DNA of 35,974 bases, from contig CAIZXS010000019.1 in the NCBI GenBank assembly GCA_903937035.1, positions 1-35,974 of the forward strand. The letters are read 5' to 3'. Made by a program: the position numbers and the translations under genes. The notes under the pieces are model-generated. The model was not told where the DNA came from. It saw nothing but the letters and a program-made list of their open reading frames with translations, and searched no databases. Position 1 is the stretch's first letter. Every line of letters begins with the position of its first letter. This DNA comes from an uncultured bacterium. GTDB taxonomy: Bacteria; Patescibacteriota; Minisyncoccia; Moranbacterales; UBA2206. Shown one piece after another: positions 597 through 34,616 of the stretch.

Positions 597-3500
597 ATGT
601 TTAAAAAACGATTAAATAGGTTGATTATTTTGGTGGCATTTTTGAGCTGTTTTGTGCTTGGAAAAAATGCTTTTGCTGCTAATTATTACGTTGATTCTTC
701 CTTGGGAGATGATGCGAATGTGGGAACTGACGCCGCTCAGCCCTGGAAAACAATTGAAAAGATTAATGCGTCCACTTTTTTGGCTGGCGATAATGTTCTT
801 TTCAAAAAAGGCAGTGTTTGGAATGGAGAGACTTTGACGGTTCCCAATTCTGGCGCGGCTGGTAATCCGATTAACTTTGGTGCTTATGGTAGCGGTAGCA
901 ATCCAATTCTTGACGGTGGCGGGACGCAAAATTTTGGGATATATGTGGGTGGAAAAAGTTATGTAGATATCACCGCTCTTGACTTTCGAAACTTCACTGC
1001 GAATAATGCACATTGTATCGGTCTTTCGGATTTGACGCATCATGTGAATATTTCTGATGTGACTTTGACCAACAGTTATGGCGGGGTCAGTCTTTGGAAT
1101 GGGCCACATGATATTTCAATTAGTAATATTGATATATCGGGAATGAACTATTCCGGAATCCTTTGGTATAATACCGGTTCAAATGACGCGTATAATATTG
1201 AAATTAAAAATTTTCGTTTGCATGATTTCAACCCGCTCTATAATTTTTATCATGGGATAAGCTTCTATTGGGGCGTGGGCGGTGCGACTGGGAAGCCATA
1301 TAACATCACAATCAAAGATGGCTCGATTTATAATCTAAAAGGAGCTGGCCAGATCAACGCTGGAATTCTTTTGACGTCGGAAGATTACCGGATAACAGGA
1401 CATAGCGTGACGATTGATAATTTGGATATTTATGAAGTTGACGGTGGCGGAATTTCTTTTGGGAATATTGATGACAGTGGGCAAGTGAAGAGTGTGATTA
1501 AAAATTCTCGCGTTCATGACAATTCGTATAAGGCGCCAATCGGTGGAATTTGGATTGCTGGTTGCATTGGTTTGGTTGTGGAGGATAATACGATTTACAA
1601 TAATCATACCAATACACGCTGGGAGGGGAACGGGCTGTATTTTGACTGGGGTGGTGGGACAGGTTCAACTGTATCGCATGATTGCATCGCGCGGAGAAAC
1701 ACAATCTATGGACATGATGATATCCATAATTTCAGTCCATTGGGTAGCGATTATGGGGCAAATTCTACTGGTATTGCTTTTACCCAAGGTGTGCATGATA
1801 TTGATGTGTATCAAAATATTGTTTATGGTAACACAGAAGGTATCAGTGCTTATTATGACAAGAGTCCAAGTACAAGCAATCCTCCCGGGCTTGATTCTCC
1901 GCATAATTTGAATATCTATAACAATGTTGTTACGGACAATGTGGTCGGTATCGCTAAGGCAGGCAGTGGAGAGAATGTTAAGTTGAGAAATAATATCGTG
2001 GCTTTTAACGCTTCCTATGGAATTGTTAATACGATCCTTTGGAATAATACCAGCACACCAATTAGTAGTGACTATAACGATGTTCATAGTAACGGAACCA
2101 ATTTTGTTAATGTTACCGAGGGGGCACATTCTGTCACAGGAGATCCTTTGTTTAAAAATAGAGGTAATCATGACTATCATCTAGAGGGAAGTTCACCATG
2201 TATAAATGTCGGAGAATCGACCAGTCTTTTTACGACTGATTATGATGGAGAATCAATTGTTGGTCAGGTGGATATGGGAGCCTTTGAATATCAAGGCTCG
2301 CTTAGCTCGACTAAATCAATTACCGCTTTCACTATTCCTGGCCAAGTTGAATCAACTACGATTAATGAAAGTGCACATACAATTGCACTGACCATGCCTC
2401 ATGGCACTGCAACTACTGCTTTAGTAGCTTCTTTTACTGCTACAGGCACTTCAGTTTTGGTGAATGGAGTTATTCAAATCAGCGGTACAACACCAAATGA
2501 TTTCACAGATCCATTGACATATTCTGTGACTGCTGCGGATGCTTCAACTCAGGCTTATGTTGTGACTGTGACGGTTGCTCCTAGTCCATCTTCAGCCAAG
2601 GCTATCACCGCATTCACGATTCCCAATCAAATTGGAGCAACCTCAATCAATGAAAGCGCACATACTATTTCTCTCACCATGCCAGTTGGCACTGATGTGA
2701 CTACACTAATTCCGACAATCACAATCACTGGAACATCCGTCAATCCTGCGAGTGGTGTCGCACAAAACTTTACAAGCCCGGTCAGCTATACCGTTACAGC
2801 GGCGGATGCTTCGACGCAAGTTTATGTCGTGACCGTAGCAGTGGCAACTTCTTCAGCTACGAAAGATATTACAGGTTTTTCTTTCGATGGACTCAACCCG
2901 GCTGTGCATGGAGTTATTGATAATGGCGCTCAAACTATCGCAATTACGGTTCCCTTTGGCACGAATGTGACTGCGTTAGTTCCGACAATTATTCACAGCG
3001 GTGCGTCTGTCAGTCCTATTTCGGGCGTGGCACAAGATTTTACTTTGCCTGTCACGTATACGGTTACCGCCCAAGATAATTCAACGAAAGCTTATGTAGT
3101 GAGCGTGAGCATATCCACTGCGCCCATTCCTACGCCTACGCCGACACCGGACAATAAGGATTATTTTGAGCACCTAAAACTTAGTTTTGATAGTAAGGAT
3201 GTCCATGATGGAAAAACATCAAAAGATGAAGTAACTTTGAAGTTTAAGAATATCTCAGGCATCAAGCGCTATAAAGTCTCACATTTTGCTCATTTCGAAA
3301 AAGCGGATTGGAAAAAAATGGAGAAAGACATTGAGCTTAAGATTAATCAGGAAGAAAGGGATGAGCAGCAATTCTTTTTCAAGTTTAAAGATAAAAATGG
3401 CAACACTTCCGATACTTACAAAAAAGAGGTTGCGTTTGAGCCTGCGCCGTATTCAATCTTTAATCTTCCAAAGAGAGGGCATAAGGGAGAGATCATGCAT

Positions 3501-3716
3501 CAATCAGGGGAGAAATTTTCTGCAAATAGTGAAGTTGCGCTATATTTTTCTGGTGCTTGGGGCGGCTATTATGCTCCAGTATATGTCAAAACAGATATGG
3601 ATGGGAATTTTTTAGTGGATTACAAAATTCGCAAAATATTTGGTTGGTATCATTGGTACGCAGTTGACTTGAAAACCGGAACCAAGACTGACACGATCTC
3701 GTATCTCATATTTTAG
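597..3716 (+). CDS. Secreted right-handed beta-helix protein with three Ig-like repeats
   Basis: This is a 1039-residue exported protein. Residues 1-27 form a signal peptide (basic MFKKR, hydrophobic core, AFA before the mature AN). Residues about 28-560 carry repeated short beta-coil motifs (runs such as NIVIYN, NNHT, YNNVV) typical of pectate-lyase/NosD-type parallel beta-helices, closing with a VDMGAFEYQG motif seen at the end of such domains. Three cadherin/Ig-like repeats of about 90 residues follow (about 570-840), each ending in a TYSVTAADAST-like strand; the first two are close copies. A PTPTPTP linker leads to a Lys-rich C-terminal domain (about 850-1039). No sortase motif or C-terminal membrane anchor is visible. 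I chose the ATG at 597 because it follows AAGGGG at 582-587 and opens directly into the signal peptide; upstream in-frame starts run through the promoter. Likely role: surface or secreted polysaccharide binding or cleavage; the substrate is unknown. Confidence 0.85.
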   Translation: MFKKRLNRLIILVAFLSCFVLGKNAFAANYYVDSSLGDDANVGTDAAQPWKTIEKINASTFLAGDNVLFKKGSVWNGETLTVPNSGAAGNPINFGAYGSGSNPILDGGGTQNFGIYVGGKSYVDITALDFRNFTANNAHCIGLSDLTHHVNISDVTLTNSYGGVSLWNGPHDISISNIDISGMNYSGILWYNTGSNDAYNIEIKNFRLHDFNPLYNFYHGISFYWGVGGATGKPYNITIKDGSIYNLKGAGQINAGILLTSEDYRITGHSVTIDNLDIYEVDGGGISFGNIDDSGQVKSVIKNSRVHDNSYKAPIGGIWIAGCIGLVVEDNTIYNNHTNTRWEGNGLYFDWGGGTGSTVSHDCIARRNTIYGHDDIHNFSPLGSDYGANSTGIAFTQGVHDIDVYQNIVYGNTEGISAYYDKSPSTSNPPGLDSPHNLNIYNNVVTDNVVGIAKAGSGENVKLRNNIVAFNASYGIVNTILWNNTSTPISSDYNDVHSNGTNFVNVTEGAHSVTGDPLFKNRGNHDYHLEGSSPCINVGESTSLFTTDYDGESIVGQVDMGAFEYQGSLSSTKSITAFTIPGQVESTTINESAHTIALTMPHGTATTALVASFTATGTSVLVNGVIQISGTTPNDFTDPLTYSVTAADASTQAYVVTVTVAPSPSSAKAITAFTIPNQIGATSINESAHTISLTMPVGTDVTTLIPTITITGTSVNPASGVAQNFTSPVSYTVTAADASTQVYVVTVAVATSSATKDITGFSFDGLNPAVHGVIDNGAQTIAITVPFGTNVTALVPTIIHSGASVSPISGVAQDFTLPVTYTVTAQDNSTKAYVVSVSISTAPIPTPTPTPDNKDYFEHLKLSFDSKDVHDGKTSKDEVTLKFKNISGIKRYKVSHFAHFEKADWKKMEKDIELKINQEERDEQQFFFKFKDKNGNTSDTYKKEVAFEPAPYSIFNLPKRGHKGEIMHQSGEKFSANSEVALYFSGAWGGYYAPVYVKTDMDGNFLVDYKIRKIFGWYHWYAVDLKTGTKTDTISYLIF

Positions 3717-3974: not shown

Positions 3975-5192
3975 ATGAAGACAGACCCGTATCAGGAAAG
4001 AGTGATTAAACCAGGAAACAGGGCTTCGGCAATGGCCTTCCGGACGAATGGAGAAAGCTTCGGGAATTGCAATGCAATTGAGATTGTTTTGGATAGTCGT
4101 CCGGAGTGGCAGAGTGAGGTGGGAGTAGTCTTCTTACCTCATATTAATAGCCTGATGAATGAGAGAGTGGAAACGCCCGGGGGCAGAAAGCCTGTTATGT
4201 GGCAAATCCCGACGACCGATGGCGGTGGACATAAGCCTGGAATTATTGGAGCACTTGGAACCGTAGATGCATTCAAAGGGCTGGGCCATGACCTGGTTGT
4301 TATGCAAGATCATGATATCCTCCGTCGTGGTGGCCTGCCATGCTATATGACCAATTTTTATGACACGAAGGCAATTACGGAAAATAATATCCACTTGCTT
4401 GATGCATACCTTCAGGGTCTTGGCAATGCTTATCGGGAAGCTGGCGTCGCTAATGTCACAGGAGAATCAGCCGTCGTTTACTACGCGGTGACTGCCTTTT
4501 GTGATCAAAATCAGGGTAGTCAATTACTTATGAACGTGGCCGGAACGTGTGTCGGATTGGCACACGTGGATAAGTATCTGGATGGATCAGGTATTCGTCC
4601 TGACATGCCTATCGTGGGTTGCAGTGAGCGTGGTGGACGTTGCAATGGATTTACTCTTGATATTGACATCATTCTTGCTTATTATGGCCAGGATTTTTAT
4701 AGACATCCTGAGGCAATGGAGTTGCTGCGTCTTTTGGCAGTTCCTTCTCTGAGCTATTCAAAGACAATTCGGCGGGTTCACGGCTGGAATCCTGATGGTA
4801 CTATTCGTGAAGCTTTAGCGAAAATTGTCGCTATGTTTCACATTACTGGAGGGGGTGTATGGGACAAGCTCCGACTGCCAGAGGGTATCGGCGCAGTTCT
4901 CGATAATATGCCTGAGCCAACAAAAGTTTTACGCATGGTTCAAGATCTTTCATGGCATATTCCCAGGCTTAAGTTGTCTGATTATCGAGCTCATGGGACT
5001 TTCAATGGATCAATTGGCTATGCCGTTATTCTTGAAGCTGATGCAGATGCCGAAATTTTTATCGAAGAATCGATGAAAGACGGTAATCACGCTCAAGTGA
5101 TTGGCAGAACGACGGCTTTTGAAAAGGGCGAGATAATCATTCATTCTCGTTTCAAAGAAGGCAAAGAGCTTTCCTCTCTCAGGCCAGAGTGA
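3975..5192 (+). CDS. AIR synthase (PurM)-family protein
   Basis: PurM converts formylglycinamidine ribonucleotide plus ATP to aminoimidazole ribonucleotide in purine synthesis. This 405-residue protein shows the family landmarks in order: a TTDGGGHK segment equivalent to TDGVGTK; GHDLVVMQDHDIL, equivalent to the DLVAMCVND loop but with His in place of the usual Asn; an LPCYMTNFYDT segment; NVTGESA (GGETA); MFHITGGGVWDKL, very close to the PurM AHITGGG motif; and a C-terminal AHGTFNGSIG (YRTFNMGIG). It is about 60 residues longer than typical PurM (about 345). The start at 3975 rather than 3957 is set by the strong SD GAGGAGG at 3961-3967, seven bases upstream. No other de novo purine gene is visible nearby, so it may be a stand-alone or repurposed enzyme. 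Its own leader and terminator make it monocistronic. Confidence 0.8.
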   Translation: MKTDPYQERVIKPGNRASAMAFRTNGESFGNCNAIEIVLDSRPEWQSEVGVVFLPHINSLMNERVETPGGRKPVMWQIPTTDGGGHKPGIIGALGTVDAFKGLGHDLVVMQDHDILRRGGLPCYMTNFYDTKAITENNIHLLDAYLQGLGNAYREAGVANVTGESAVVYYAVTAFCDQNQGSQLLMNVAGTCVGLAHVDKYLDGSGIRPDMPIVGCSERGGRCNGFTLDIDIILAYYGQDFYRHPEAMELLRLLAVPSLSYSKTIRRVHGWNPDGTIREALAKIVAMFHITGGGVWDKLRLPEGIGAVLDNMPEPTKVLRMVQDLSWHIPRLKLSDYRAHGTFNGSIGYAVILEADADAEIFIEESMKDGNHAQVIGRTTAFEKGEIIIHSRFKEGKELSSLRPE

Positions 5193-24504: not shown

Positions 24505-24783
24505 ATGGGCTTGAAATCAATATTTTGGGTTTCGTCAGGATTGATTGTGGGTGTTGGTGCATATGGGATATGGCTTTCTCTGTCTTTTTTCAGCGGAGTC
24601 AAGAGCATCTTATTTGTCTCGATAGCTCCTATCATTATTGGCGGAGGTGTCGTGAGTTCTATATGGTATTTAGCAGGCTTTTTCCGCGGACAATTCGGAT
24701 ATTATCCTTGGAGTAGAAAGAAGCCTTCCGCTATTGATGCTTGGCCATGCGACTGTTCTGACATCGATTGTGGTGATGACTAA
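24505..24783 (+). CDS. Small two-helix membrane protein inserted between rplK and rplA
   Basis: I do not recognise this 92-residue protein. It has two membrane segments (about residues 5-27 and 35-58), a basic/aromatic stretch (YYPWSRKK) and an acidic cysteine-containing tail (WPCDCSDIDCGDD) that could bind metal. A strong SD, AAGGAGG at 24488-24494, lies 10 bases before the ATG, unlike the SD-less ribosomal genes on both sides. It interrupts the usually adjacent rplK-rplA pair, which suggests a later insertion. A stable hairpin follows it. Confidence 0.65.
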   Translation: MGLKSIFWVSSGLIVGVGAYGIWLSLSFFSGVKSILFVSIAPIIIGGGVVSSIWYLAGFFRGQFGYYPWSRKKPSAIDAWPCDCSDIDCGDD

Positions 24784-31135: not shown

Positions 31136-31492
31136 ATGGATTGTATATTTTGTAAAATCATAAAAAAAGAAGTACCCGCAGTTATCATCTATGAAGATGA
31201 TGATGTTTTGGCTTTCAATGATGTGCGTCCACTTGCGCCTGTGCATGTGCTGATTATTCCCAAAAAGCACATTGAAAGCTTGAATGACATCACAGAAGAG
31301 AATTCTGCGCTTATTGGAAAAATGGCTCTTGCAGCGAATAAAATTGCTGTCGACTTTGACATTTCGCCAAAAGGGTATAAACTATTAACTCGGGTCGGAG
31401 AGTGGGGAGGGCAAGAGGTTCCGCATCTGCATATGCATCTTATTGGCGGAGTGAAGCTCTATGAGAACATTCGTCCTTGGGAGAATCAATAA
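31136..31492 (+). CDS. hinT: HIT-family purine nucleotide phosphoramidase (HinT)
   Basis: Hydrolyses nucleotide phosphoramidates. 118 residues, the standard length, with the N-terminal CIFCKIIKKEVPA, the substrate loop FNDVRPLAPVHVLIIPKKH and the HIT triad HLHMHLIGG. It follows hisS by 21 bases. Confidence 0.94.
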   Translation: MDCIFCKIIKKEVPAVIIYEDDDVLAFNDVRPLAPVHVLIIPKKHIESLNDITEENSALIGKMALAANKIAVDFDISPKGYKLLTRVGEWGGQEVPHLHMHLIGGVKLYENIRPWENQ

Positions 31493-31531
31493 ATTAGACA
31501 ATTTCCTGTTTCGTAATTAGGGTAAATTTAG

Positions 31532-31540
31532 AAAGGAGGT
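31532..31540 (+). promoter_or_regulatory. Strong Shine-Dalgarno of rpsU
   Basis: AAAGGAGGT, near-perfect complement to the 16S 3' end, four bases from the ATG. The neighbouring core genes lepB, hisS and yqeY have none. Confidence 0.9.
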
Positions 31541-31544
31541 TTTT

Positions 31545-31799
31545 ATGATTGAGGTAAAAAGAAAAGAACGTGAGTCACCAGAGAGTCTTATAAGACGTTT
31601 CAGTCGTCGCATTCAACAGAGTGGAGTTTTGATGCGTGCCAGAAAAGTGCGCTTCAGGCAAGATGAAAAAAGCAAGAGCGAAATGCGCGCCGGTGCGATG
31701 TATAAGGTTAAGGTGCGTAAAGTTGTAAATAAGCTTAAGAAAATGGGCAAATTTGATGATCAAAACTTTAAAAACGTCAAAAAGAAATTAATTAAGTAA
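31545..31799 (+). CDS. rpsU: Small ribosomal subunit protein bS21
   Basis: bS21 sits beside the 16S anti-Shine-Dalgarno on the platform and affects start-site selection. 84 residues, longer than the usual 58-71. The conserved core is ESPESLIRRFSRRIQQSGVLMRARKVRF; a basic tail with two further Lys-rich segments follows. It is preceded by AAAGGAGGT. It lies 52 bases after hinT, with no clear own promoter. Confidence 0.92.
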   Translation: MIEVKRKERESPESLIRRFSRRIQQSGVLMRARKVRFRQDEKSKSEMRAGAMYKVKVRKVVNKLKKMGKFDDQNFKNVKKKLIK

Positions 31800-31803
31800 T
31801 ATG

Positions 31804-31905
31804 ATACGAATGATGCGAATTTCATGCTAATTCGCAAATACGCGAATAATGCGAAAAGCTGATTCGCGTATTAGTAGCATTCGCATTCATTTGCAAATTT
31901 GTATT
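31804..31905. repeat. About 100-bp imperfect palindrome built from GCGAAT/ATTCGC units
   Basis: Perfect 11-bp core stem AATACGCGAAT (31837-31847) with ATTCGCGTATT (31862-31872); weaker outer pairing between the ATACGAATGATGCGAAT arm and the ATTCGCATTCATTTG arm. It fills the rpsU-yqeY gap. Confidence 0.75.
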
Positions 31906-32358
31906 ATGTTAAAAAAACAAATTTTAGAGGATCTAAAAACTGCTATGAAAGTAGGGGATACAGCGAAGCGAGATACACTGCGCATGCTTGATTCGATGGT
32001 GAAAAACGTCGAAATTGAAAAGCAAAAACGAGAAACTGGCCTCACTGACGAAGAGGTTTTGGAAGTGATTGGAAAAGCGGTGAAACAAAGACGAGACGCT
32101 TCTGCGCAGTATCTTGCTGGAGGACGAGCGGATCTCGTAGAAAAAGAAAATCAAGAAATTGAAATATTGATGGCCTATATGCCAGCCCAACTTGACGAAG
32201 CAGTTGTGCGTGAAACTGTGAAAGCGGTTATTGCTCAGACTGGCGCAACTGGAATGGCAGACATTGGTAAGGTGATGGGACAAGCTATGGGGAAGCTGAA
32301 AGGTCAGGCTGATGGTAATTTGGTAAAAAAACTGGCAGAAGAAGAGTTGGGAAAATAA
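31906..32358 (+). CDS. GatB/YqeY-domain protein
   Basis: 150 residues matching the YqeY family, a helical domain shared with the tail of the tRNA amidotransferase subunit GatB. It shows ILEDLKTAMKVGDTAKRDTLRML at the N-terminus, an IGKAVKQRRDA segment, YMPAQLDEA and the C-terminal GMADIGKVMGQAMGKLKGQADG. The start at 31906 is chosen because the extension to 31849 is read through the palindromic repeat. The biochemical role is not settled in the family. Confidence 0.92.
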   Translation: MLKKQILEDLKTAMKVGDTAKRDTLRMLDSMVKNVEIEKQKRETGLTDEEVLEVIGKAVKQRRDASAQYLAGGRADLVEKENQEIEILMAYMPAQLDEAVVRETVKAVIAQTGATGMADIGKVMGQAMGKLKGQADGNLVKKLAEEELGK

Positions 32359-32597: not shown

Positions 32598-33128
32598 ATG
32601 AGCAGTATCTCAAATTTGAATAACTCGACGCAAAAGCGAACTTGGCATGAAGATGGAGGGGTGATATTTGTACCTCTTCCGCCAACTGACGGGACAACCG
32701 GCCGTGAATGGATTGAAAGATCGAAGAGGGATGGCACTGTGAGCCCGCTTGCCATAAGTACTCTATGGTCAAAATTTTTCCATCCAACTACTGGTGGCAT
32801 GAGCAATATCGTCATTATCAGAGGAGCGTTTTTTGTGGATGATAATCGAAAAACAAGTATTATTCGAGCCGAAGGAAAAAGGCGTGGCTATTTAGAGCCA
32901 GGACCAGAAGATGGTTGTCTCCTTCGCGAAGTGCTCACGGATGCGGATGTTTTGGAGATGGGATTGTTGCGAATTGTTACAATGCACGAACCCCTTGCGG
33001 ACGGTGATGGTGTTTTGCGTCTTCTCACCGCTTGTGGTGATGAAAAAATGCGCCAGCTATGCGCTCACAGGGGCGATCCGACTTATTGGTGGGAGGAATT
33101 TTTTGGGTTTGCCTTTCGGGCGCCCTAA
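32598..33128 (+). CDS. Orphan soluble protein, unknown
   Basis: I do not recognise this 176-residue protein. It has no signal peptide or membrane segment. Notable stretches are WHEDGGVIFVPLPPTDGTTG near the start, a GGMSNIVIIRGAFFVDD beta-rich segment and a Trp/Phe-rich C-terminus (YWWEEFFGFAF). The start at 32598 follows the SD TGGAGGT at 32587-32593; the ATG at 32586 is part of that SD. The gene stands alone between terminators, with a structured leader, and its base composition looks richer in G and C than its neighbours', hinting at acquisition. Confidence 0.65.
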   Translation: MSSISNLNNSTQKRTWHEDGGVIFVPLPPTDGTTGREWIERSKRDGTVSPLAISTLWSKFFHPTTGGMSNIVIIRGAFFVDDNRKTSIIRAEGKRRGYLEPGPEDGCLLREVLTDADVLEMGLLRIVTMHEPLADGDGVLRLLTACGDEKMRQLCAHRGDPTYWWEEFFGFAFRAP

Positions 33129-33313: not shown

Positions 33314-33628
33314 ATGCGAGCCTGGCGCTCAGTTCTCGGAATGCTCTTAACAGTGATTCAGCTGATGATAGCGGTAGTTTTTCTTATTCAAGCGGTTGTG
33401 TCTGATAGTGTTGTTAGATGGATTATGGATTTATCTGGACTGACCTATTCAAATACAAACTATTATCAGGTCAATGGGTTGGATCTGAGTGCTAATATCC
33501 GCTTCTTAGGCTCCATCCTTATCGCCTTGCTATTTGGATACATCCTTATTGTGTTCGTTCCTGGCTGGGTGAGAAGGAAAGAGCTAGAGCCAGAGGAAAT
33601 GAATGAATTAAACCTTTTTGAAGATTAG
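33314..33628 (+). CDS. Small two-helix membrane protein, unknown
   Basis: 104 residues with membrane segments at about 8-29 and 64-84, a polar external loop (YSNTNYYQVNGLDLSAN) and an acidic cytoplasmic tail after RRKELEPEEMNELN. Not recognised. There is no usable SD (AGG touches the ATG). A leader of about 75 bases contains a possible nine-codon reading frame at 33270-33299. It ends at a bidirectional terminator shared with tRNA-Leu. Confidence 0.6.
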   Translation: MRAWRSVLGMLLTVIQLMIAVVFLIQAVVSDSVVRWIMDLSGLTYSNTNYYQVNGLDLSANIRFLGSILIALLFGYILIVFVPGWVRRKELEPEEMNELNLFED

Positions 33629-33649
33629 ATTTGCAGAAGACGCGTCAGA

Positions 33650-33681
33650 AGCAAAAAACTCCCGAAAGGGAGTTTTTTGCT
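33650..33681. terminator. Perfect bidirectional terminator
   Basis: AGCAAAAAACTCCC (33650-33663) and GGGAGTTTTTTGCT (33668-33681), loop GAAA: 14 perfect pairs with A and T runs on both sides. It stops the membrane gene from the left and the tRNA from the right. Confidence 0.95.
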
Positions 33682-33685
33682 GTAT

Positions 33686-33772
33686 TGGTGCCAAAGGAGA
33701 GAATCGAACTCTCATGGGATTACTCCCGCACGATTTTGAGTCGTGTGCGTCTACCAGTTCCGCCACTTCGGC
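33686..33772 (-). tRNA. tRNA-Leu (anticodon CAA), CCA encoded
   Basis: Read on the minus strand: acceptor GCCGAAG with CTTTGGC, D-arm with GGTAGACGC, anticodon stem CACGA/TCGTG around loop CTCAAAA (anticodon CAA), a long variable arm CGGGAGTAATCCC typical of Leu, T-arm GAGAG-TTCGATT-CTCTC, discriminator A and templated CCA. 87 bases. Confidence 0.95.
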
Positions 33773-33785
33773 ATATATCTACCAT

Positions 33786-33814
33786 TTGGAGATGTCCCAA
33801 ACTTGTAGTATAAT
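33786..33814 (+). promoter_or_regulatory. parA promoter
   Basis: TTGGAG (33786-33791), 17 bases, TATAAT (33809-33814). Predicted start about 33821, so the mRNA is nearly leaderless (ATG at 33828). Confidence 0.75.
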
Positions 33815-33834
33815 TCACTTATTGATTATGGCAA
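33807..33834 (-). promoter_or_regulatory. tRNA-Leu promoter, overlapping that of parA
   Basis: Minus strand TTGCCA (33834-33829), 16 bases, TATACT (33812-33807). It uses four of the same six base pairs as the parA -10, and its -35 covers the parA start codon. Confidence 0.65.
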
Positions 33835-34616
33835 AAATTATTTCATTAGTCAACCAGAAGGGCGGAGTGGGCAAAACCACCTCTGCCATTAACCTTGCGA
33901 CCTATTTAGCGTCAGCAGGGAAGTTTGTGCTCCTTGTTGATCTTGATCCTCAGGGCAATGCATCATCTGGATTGGGTTTCGACATCCGCACGATTGACAA
34001 AAGTCTCTATCATTCCATGATTTTAGGTGAGCATCCGTCAAAGATTATTATGCGCACGGAAACTCTCGGACATGACCTAATTCCTTCCTCGCAAGACTTG
34101 GCGGGAGCTGGAATCGAGCTTGTGCACATGGATAATCGTGAATTTCGATTATATAACGTTCTGCGAGAAATCCGTACAAATTATGACTATATCATTATTG
34201 ATTCCCCGCCAAGCCTGGGCCTACTGACGATTAATGGTCTTGTGGCGAGTGATGAAATAATCATTCCGGTGCAAACGGAGTATTTTGCGTTGGAGGGGCT
34301 TAGTCAGCTTTTGAATACAATAACGCTTGTAAAAGAGAATTTGCAGCCAAAATTGAAAATAATGGGAGCGCTACTCACAATGTATGACCGGAGAAATCGC
34401 CTAGCGCGGCAAGTAGTAAAAGAGGTGCAAGATCATTTTCCTGGACATGTTTTTGACAGTGTGATTCCACGTTCAGTGCGTCTCGCTGAGGCGCCTGGTT
34501 TTGGAAAATCCATTCTTGGTTTTGATGCTTTTTCGCGTGGCGCACGGTCGTATAAAAATTTTGCCAAGGAAGTGATTGGTCTTGAGAAGAAAGACGTTAA
34601 AAAGTTTTCAGTGTAG
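33828..34616 (+). CDS. parA: Chromosome-partitioning ATPase ParA/Soj
   Basis: 262-residue deviant-Walker ATPase that moves ParB-bound origins. QKGGVGKTTSAINLA (10-24) holds both Lys of the deviant P-loop; DLDPQGNASSG and IIDSPPSLGLLT are the A' and B motifs. The start at 33828 is firm because the in-frame extension to 33618 crosses the tRNA and terminator. No SD. Separated from parB by a mobile repeat. Confidence 0.95.
   Translation: MAKIISLVNQKGGVGKTTSAINLATYLASAGKFVLLVDLDPQGNASSGLGFDIRTIDKSLYHSMILGEHPSKIIMRTETLGHDLIPSSQDLAGAGIELVHMDNREFRLYNVLREIRTNYDYIIIDSPPSLGLLTINGLVASDEIIIPVQTEYFALEGLSQLLNTITLVKENLQPKLKIMGALLTMYDRRNRLARQVVKEVQDHFPGHVFDSVIPRSVRLAEAPGFGKSILGFDAFSRGARSYKNFAKEVIGLEKKDVKKFSV

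Follow-up and report, generated by a model that had tools for sequence, protein, structure and literature searches.

Why should rpsU, the gene for ribosomal protein bS21, carry a strong Shine-Dalgarno (SD) sequence when the core genes of the same genome have none? The question is raised by a stretch of 35,974 nucleotides (the window) that makes up contig C19 of a bacterial genome of 1.22 Mb in 26 contigs, whose closest named kin by bS21 are Candidatus Moranbacteria/Moraniibacteriota, on the Paceibacteria/Parcubacteria side of the Patescibacteria. An earlier note on this DNA proposed that bS21 helps to hide the anti-SD (ASD) of the 16S rRNA, as in Bacteroidia, that rpsU senses this through its SD, and that four SD-bearing accessory genes of the window belong to the same bS21-sensitive set. 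The rpsU locus reads as follows.

31136..31492, plus strand: HIT-domain protein gene upstream of rpsU, SD-less (Pfam HIT, 3e-26; leader at +1.6 kcal/mol)
31529..31540, plus strand: extended SD of rpsU, TAGAAAGGAGGT, a perfect complement of the 16S tail ACCTCCTTTCTA
31545..31799, plus strand: rpsU, ribosomal protein bS21, 84 aa (phmmer matches to PDB bS21 chains; Pfam S21 at 19.6 bits, under the cut-off of 27)
31906..32358, plus strand: YqeY-like gene downstream of rpsU, SD-less (Pfam YqeY, 3e-46 from 31906)

The start of the YqeY-like gene was placed at 31906 and not at 31849, in line with the Pfam match obtained from 31906. The gap between rpsU and this gene (31795-31910) holds a long imperfect hairpin (-40 kcal/mol, z -4.3 versus shuffles) that could be a terminator-like or processing element. 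Further downstream, a tRNA-Leu(caa) (33686-33772, minus strand) lies inside the 5' part of an ORF listed from a TTG start (33618-34616), which makes it likely that translation of this ORF really begins at a later position.

The 16S 3' end, read from the same genome, is GGATCACCTCCTTTCTA, and the ASD on which the earlier proposal depends is intact. TAGAAAGGAGGT forms 12 consecutive pairs with the tail CACCTCCTTTCTA (-18.7 kcal/mol) and is separated by four bases from the rpsU ATG at 31545. In a gene call that ignored SDs and covered 1.0 Mb of the genome's 1.22 Mb, 759 genes reached 80 aa or more, and the rpsU leader had the strongest pairing of them all. Scanning all 33,462 possible starts showed that it is not the single strongest SD of the genome: the gene for the DNA-binding protein HU (94 aa, missed by the gene caller) reaches -19.9 kcal/mol, and two small unverified ORFs, at L068 6600 (minus strand, 57 aa) and L032 14557 (52 aa), also exceed rpsU (-22.2 and -20.1 kcal/mol). 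Among translation genes, rpsU nevertheless stands apart, as the earlier note had seen by eye: none of the 27 translation or core genes located with E. coli queries goes beyond -6.8 kcal/mol (rpsD), and the scatter of strong SDs over core genes that would speak against the proposal was not found among them. The gene rpsR, the other one with frequent SDs in Bacteroidia, is at +0.1 kcal/mol. The S10 operon lies outside the sampled part of this genome and was scored instead in G026, a genome from another family of the order, in which rpsU (-18.2 kcal/mol) ranks first of 273 genes and the best other of 27 core genes reaches -7.4 kcal/mol. Across the window's own genome, the core SD motif occurs in 7.6% of leaders versus 3.7% at control positions, and leaders tend to have A at positions -4 to -6 and -11/-12 and U at -1. 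These data support SD-less initiation as the norm in this organism.

The accessory genes of the window tell a different story from the one the earlier note had given them.

597..3716, plus strand: Beta-helix/DUF5018 protein, AAGGGG at best a weak SD (-7.3 kcal/mol); G+C 0.41
3975..5192, plus strand: AIR-synthase-related accessory gene (Pfam AIRS), SD GAGGAGG (-15.7 kcal/mol), probably foreign; no same-genus homologue; G+C 0.47
24505..24783, plus strand: small membrane protein ORF between rplK and rplA, no Pfam family, SD AAGGAGG (-12.7 kcal/mol); G+C 0.44
32598..33128, plus strand: accessory ORF, no Pfam family, SD TGGAGGT (-10.7 kcal/mol), probably foreign or patchy; G+C 0.48

Three of the four SDs are real, and that of 597 is near background. 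None of 3975, 24505 and 32598 has a homologue in any of six same-genus genomes; 24505 has none among 28 relatives, and homologues of 32598 occur only in G008, G011 and G012. Their G+C content (0.44-0.48) is raised relative to that of the genome (0.40). Genome-wide, genes with a pairing energy of -9 kcal/mol or stronger are shorter, richer in G+C (0.433 versus 0.399, p = 1e-14) and clustered, with 26 adjacent pairs versus 8.2 expected (maximum of 21 in 2000 shuffles). The missing same-genus homologues, the raised G+C and the clustering led us to reject the idea that the accessory genes of the window form a conserved set under common regulation. Since they lack same-genus homologues, and since both their own G+C and the location of SD genes in higher-G+C islands point the same way, the simplest reading is that 3975, 24505 and 32598 were acquired from SD-using donors, and the pattern would fit a recent event. 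Clustered SD-bearing genes resembling those of purine/NAD salvage and synthesis (purF, purB, purC, purE, NAMPT and AIRS-like) were seen at L031 6345-12196, at L039 5622-7027 and in the window at 3975-5192, which suggests that these genes were acquired.

The rpsU leader, for its part, is conserved. All Moranbacteria relatives whose leader could be read have the extended SD, while the flanking leader sequence varies freely, so the loss of the SD in relatives that would have counted against the earlier note was not seen there. In 37 aligned leaders, five G positions and one A are invariant; half of the substitutions are A-to-G, which keeps the pair with U, and most of the others lie at the helix ends. 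To place this in the class, 112 Paceibacteria genomes were sampled, of which 108 have bS21 and 90 allowed the rpsU pairing energy to be read (the leader of G028, masked by N, was left out). The energies are bimodal: about a third reach -10 kcal/mol or lower, in most cases at least as low as -14, all others lie above -6.2, and none falls between -6.1 and -10.0.

This division follows the state of the ASD. Among the 61 genomes with both an rpsU leader and a 16S tail, 27 combine a strong SD with an intact ASD, one a strong SD with a changed ASD, three no SD with an intact ASD, and 30 no SD with a changed ASD (Fisher p = 7e-13, ancestry ignored). One apparent exception, L126, was rejected: its intact 16S comes from another organism and the genuine tail has no ASD. 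With this contaminant replaced, the extended rpsU SD is found in 27 of 29 genomes with an intact ASD versus 1 of 32 with an altered one. The two remaining intact-ASD genomes without an rpsU SD, G119 and G074, have a strong SD before HU (-16.5 and -16.4 kcal/mol), and no ASD-intact genome without any extended-SD gene was seen, HU having been checked in a sample of genomes. A 16S tree covering 47 genomes needs only five changes of ASD state, of which well-supported branches force three, and lineages with an intact ASD sit within groups of changed ones. Shared ancestry thus inflates the association, and a sign test on the independent contrasts, which are few, cannot reach significance. The rpsU leaders of Uhrbacteria (TAGAAAGGAAGGTG) had hinted at a changed ASD, an idea ruled out by their canonical 16S tails, which make these leaders bulged pairings. 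The 16S genes of G040 and G036 (L151, L152) have apparent intron-like insertions near their 3' ends, immediately ahead of the ASD region. Two bins contain foreign rRNA through contamination, a eukaryote-like SSU tail in G022 (L163, G022:C160) and another bacterium's 16S in G043 (L135, G043:C18).

That the ASD has been lost from a few genomes of candidate phyla was known before. In a study of SD-scarce organisms, Wolfebacteria, Campbellbacteria, Absconditabacteria and Peribacter were found to lack CCUCC and to make little use of SDs (PMC10783764), in line with what we see here. In the passages of that study drawn on here, rpsU comes up for Flavobacterium alone, and ASD loss in candidate phyla is not connected with the leaders of rpsU or HU; a connection with the rpsU leader is what we see here over 61 genomes. 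In the portion of the literature covered we found no published link between rpsU leaders and ASD status in Patescibacteria, although priority is not certain.

Further evidence for pairing comes from G070, a genome of another family of the class, whose 16S tail has changed to GATTATCTCTTTTCAAA. The rpsU leader of G070 contains TTTGAAAAGAGATAAT, which complements this changed tail (ATTATCTCTTTTCAAA) perfectly over 16 nt and pairs at -19.0 kcal/mol with its own tail (z -7.2 versus shuffles) versus -6.1 kcal/mol with a canonical one. With at most one mismatch allowed, the 15-mer has exactly two occurrences in the genome, one at rpsU and the other at the 16S tail. This is compensatory covariation, in a single case: none of the other 26 changed tails tested pairs with its own rpsU leader beyond chance, and G142, considered as a second case, was dropped as the pairing with its own tail is no better than that of shuffles. 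Covariation of the same kind has served as evidence for Chryseobacteria (PMC9976891). As the rpsU SD both tracks an intact ASD and has changed together with an altered tail in G070, we conclude that the pairing is real, and we have little doubt that it is functional.

A small number of other genes share the leader type and, unlike the accessory genes of the window, are conserved; a companion set does exist, with members other than those named in the earlier note.

L180 12573 (own contig C11; relatives L385-L409): main HU gene, extended SD
L183 18498-19133 (own contig C21; relatives L355-L384): X, a conserved single-pass membrane protein with weak SpoIIIAH similarity, below cut-off
L063 4841 and 5304, L083 14996, L088 15233: type IV pilin genes (GFTLIELLIVIAIIG); SDs extended and in most cases bulged

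The main HU gene has a strong extended SD in 25 of 25 Moranbacteria orthologues (-16 to -21 kcal/mol) and in 8 of 14 ASD-intact genomes outside Moranbacteria. In ASD-changed genomes, none of 14 has an SD at the true start of HU, a single value of -12.3 kcal/mol belonging to an upstream alternative start. A second HU paralogue has no SD (0 of 3). The leader of X is strong in 24 of 24 Moranbacteria orthologues and always has an extra base in its middle (TAGAAAGGNAGGTGA type), which enables the whole 14-nt tail to pair around a bulge; the bulged form is also found in Uhrbacteria rpsU and in HU of many genomes. An X-like protein with the same leader occurs in G061, from another family, and type IV pilin genes with a strong leader were found in the window's own genome and two relatives. 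The leader of rpsU, HU and X is kept across about 20 genera with differing flanks. The sole, or nearly sole, extended-SD gene is thus not what rpsU is, and since HU, X and the pilins also carry the leader type, bS21 feedback alone does not explain the whole set.

In Flavobacterium johnsoniae, bS21, bS18 and bS6 sequester the 16S tail, and ribosomes without bS21 translate rpsU via its extended SD, which restores bS21; Tyr54 of bS21, which redirects the tail, stacks on A1534 (McNutt et al., 2023; PMC9976891). The Moranbacteria case has the genomic features published for that system: an SD-poor genome with an intact ASD, an extended SD of 9-13 bp, and pairing of rpsU that lies below -13 kcal/mol and far exceeds that of any other ribosomal protein gene scored. 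The two also share a natural case in which the rpsU SD has changed along with the ASD, provided by Chryseobacteria in the one (PMC9976891) and by G070 in the other. The genes for bS18 and bS6 were located. Tyr53 of the window's bS21 aligns with F. johnsoniae Tyr54, and a Tyr is found at the aligned position in Moranbacteria sequences. Class-wide, Tyr at this position is present in 11 of 33 SD-bearing versus 4 of 57 SD-less bS21s, which rules it out as a marker of the mechanism for the class, and the Uhrbacteria-type bS21 has an Arg there yet a strong SD. The two cases also differ in phylum, in the Tyr not being general among SD-bearing Paceibacteria, and in the many sister lineages that have lost the ASD together with the rpsU SD. 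In Flavobacteriales, moreover, rpsU is typically alone (PMC9976891), whereas HU, X and the pilins also have extended SDs here. Because rpsU is not alone, we describe the Moranbacteria case as one that would work like the Bacteroidota system and not as an established member of it.

The mechanism that we propose is the following. Most messages in these Patescibacteria start without an SD, the 16S tail keeps its ASD, and the rpsU SD, which pairs with nearly the whole tail, would act as a ribosome-sensing element. In the complete 30S subunit, bS21, with bS18 and bS6, would hinder the tail; in a 30S subunit without bS21 the tail would be free and initiation on the extended SD of rpsU preferred, so that bS21 would be made until subunits are complete. 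HU, X and the pilins, with the same kind of leader, may answer to the same switch. We infer, by carrying the logic of bS21 over to Moranbacteria as the earlier note did, that bS21 itself gates the ASD, and we consider a Bacteroidota-type feedback in which bS21 occupancy is the switch the best explanation of the rpsU leader, and on balance a probable one.

HU and pilins are typically abundant proteins, which is what the main rival explanation builds on. It counts bS21 among the abundant proteins too and takes the extended SD as the mark of a handful of genes in need of very high initiation rates, on ribosomes whose ASD is always accessible and in which there is no feedback. The shared leader of HU, the pilins and X would suit it, as would the boost that a strong SD can give to initiation wherever a bacterium's ASD is accessible. 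We consider it unlikely, however, as the abundant rpsD, rplA, rplK and tuf, and the S10-operon genes scored in G026, do without an SD, as does the second HU gene, and bS21 is, of the ribosomal proteins found, the only one whose gene has an SD, just as in the Bacteroidota feedback (PMC9976891).

The ASD might also have been kept for some other reason, such as 16S 3' end maturation or assembly factors, with the SDs of rpsU and HU merely exploiting it. The ASD stretch is an assembly-factor site in other bacteria, where Era recognises GAUCACCUCC; most CPR bacteria lack Era (PMC10582724). Since SDs need an ASD, retention for another reason would yield the same correlation between the two. About half of the sampled genomes have nonetheless lost the ASD and survive, and rpsU of G070 matches the changed tail of that genome, as expected under selection for pairing, which leaves this explanation doubtful. 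That all SD genes, rpsU included, are functionless relics of SD use in an ancestor or a foreign source is highly improbable. The clustering, higher G+C and shortness of the accessory SD genes and their want of same-genus homologues in the window are what such relics would show, and for the window's accessory genes this is the best reading. It is refuted for rpsU, HU and X, whose leader persists over some 20 genera amid different flanks, vanishes where the ASD is lost and tracks the altered ASD in G070.

Feedback through bS21 occupancy, the reading that we prefer, would extend a ribosome-based regulatory signature known from Bacteroidota to the Patescibacteria, a radiation of its own and of vast diversity, and would add HU, pilin and membrane protein genes as its conserved partners. 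The compensatory mutation pair of G070 is a natural one and could be tested in a cell-free system. The ASD of SD-poor Paceibacteria may persist chiefly for the small set of extended-SD genes, which offers a possible explanation of why some SD-poor bacteria keep the ASD and others lose it. We tentatively raise the broader possibility that the Paceibacteria ASD no longer serves general translation and survives for a tiny bS21-gated regulon of rpsU, HU, a membrane protein and type IV pilins, such that lineages losing the leaders would lose the ASD, one lineage having instead rewritten both sides of the pairing.
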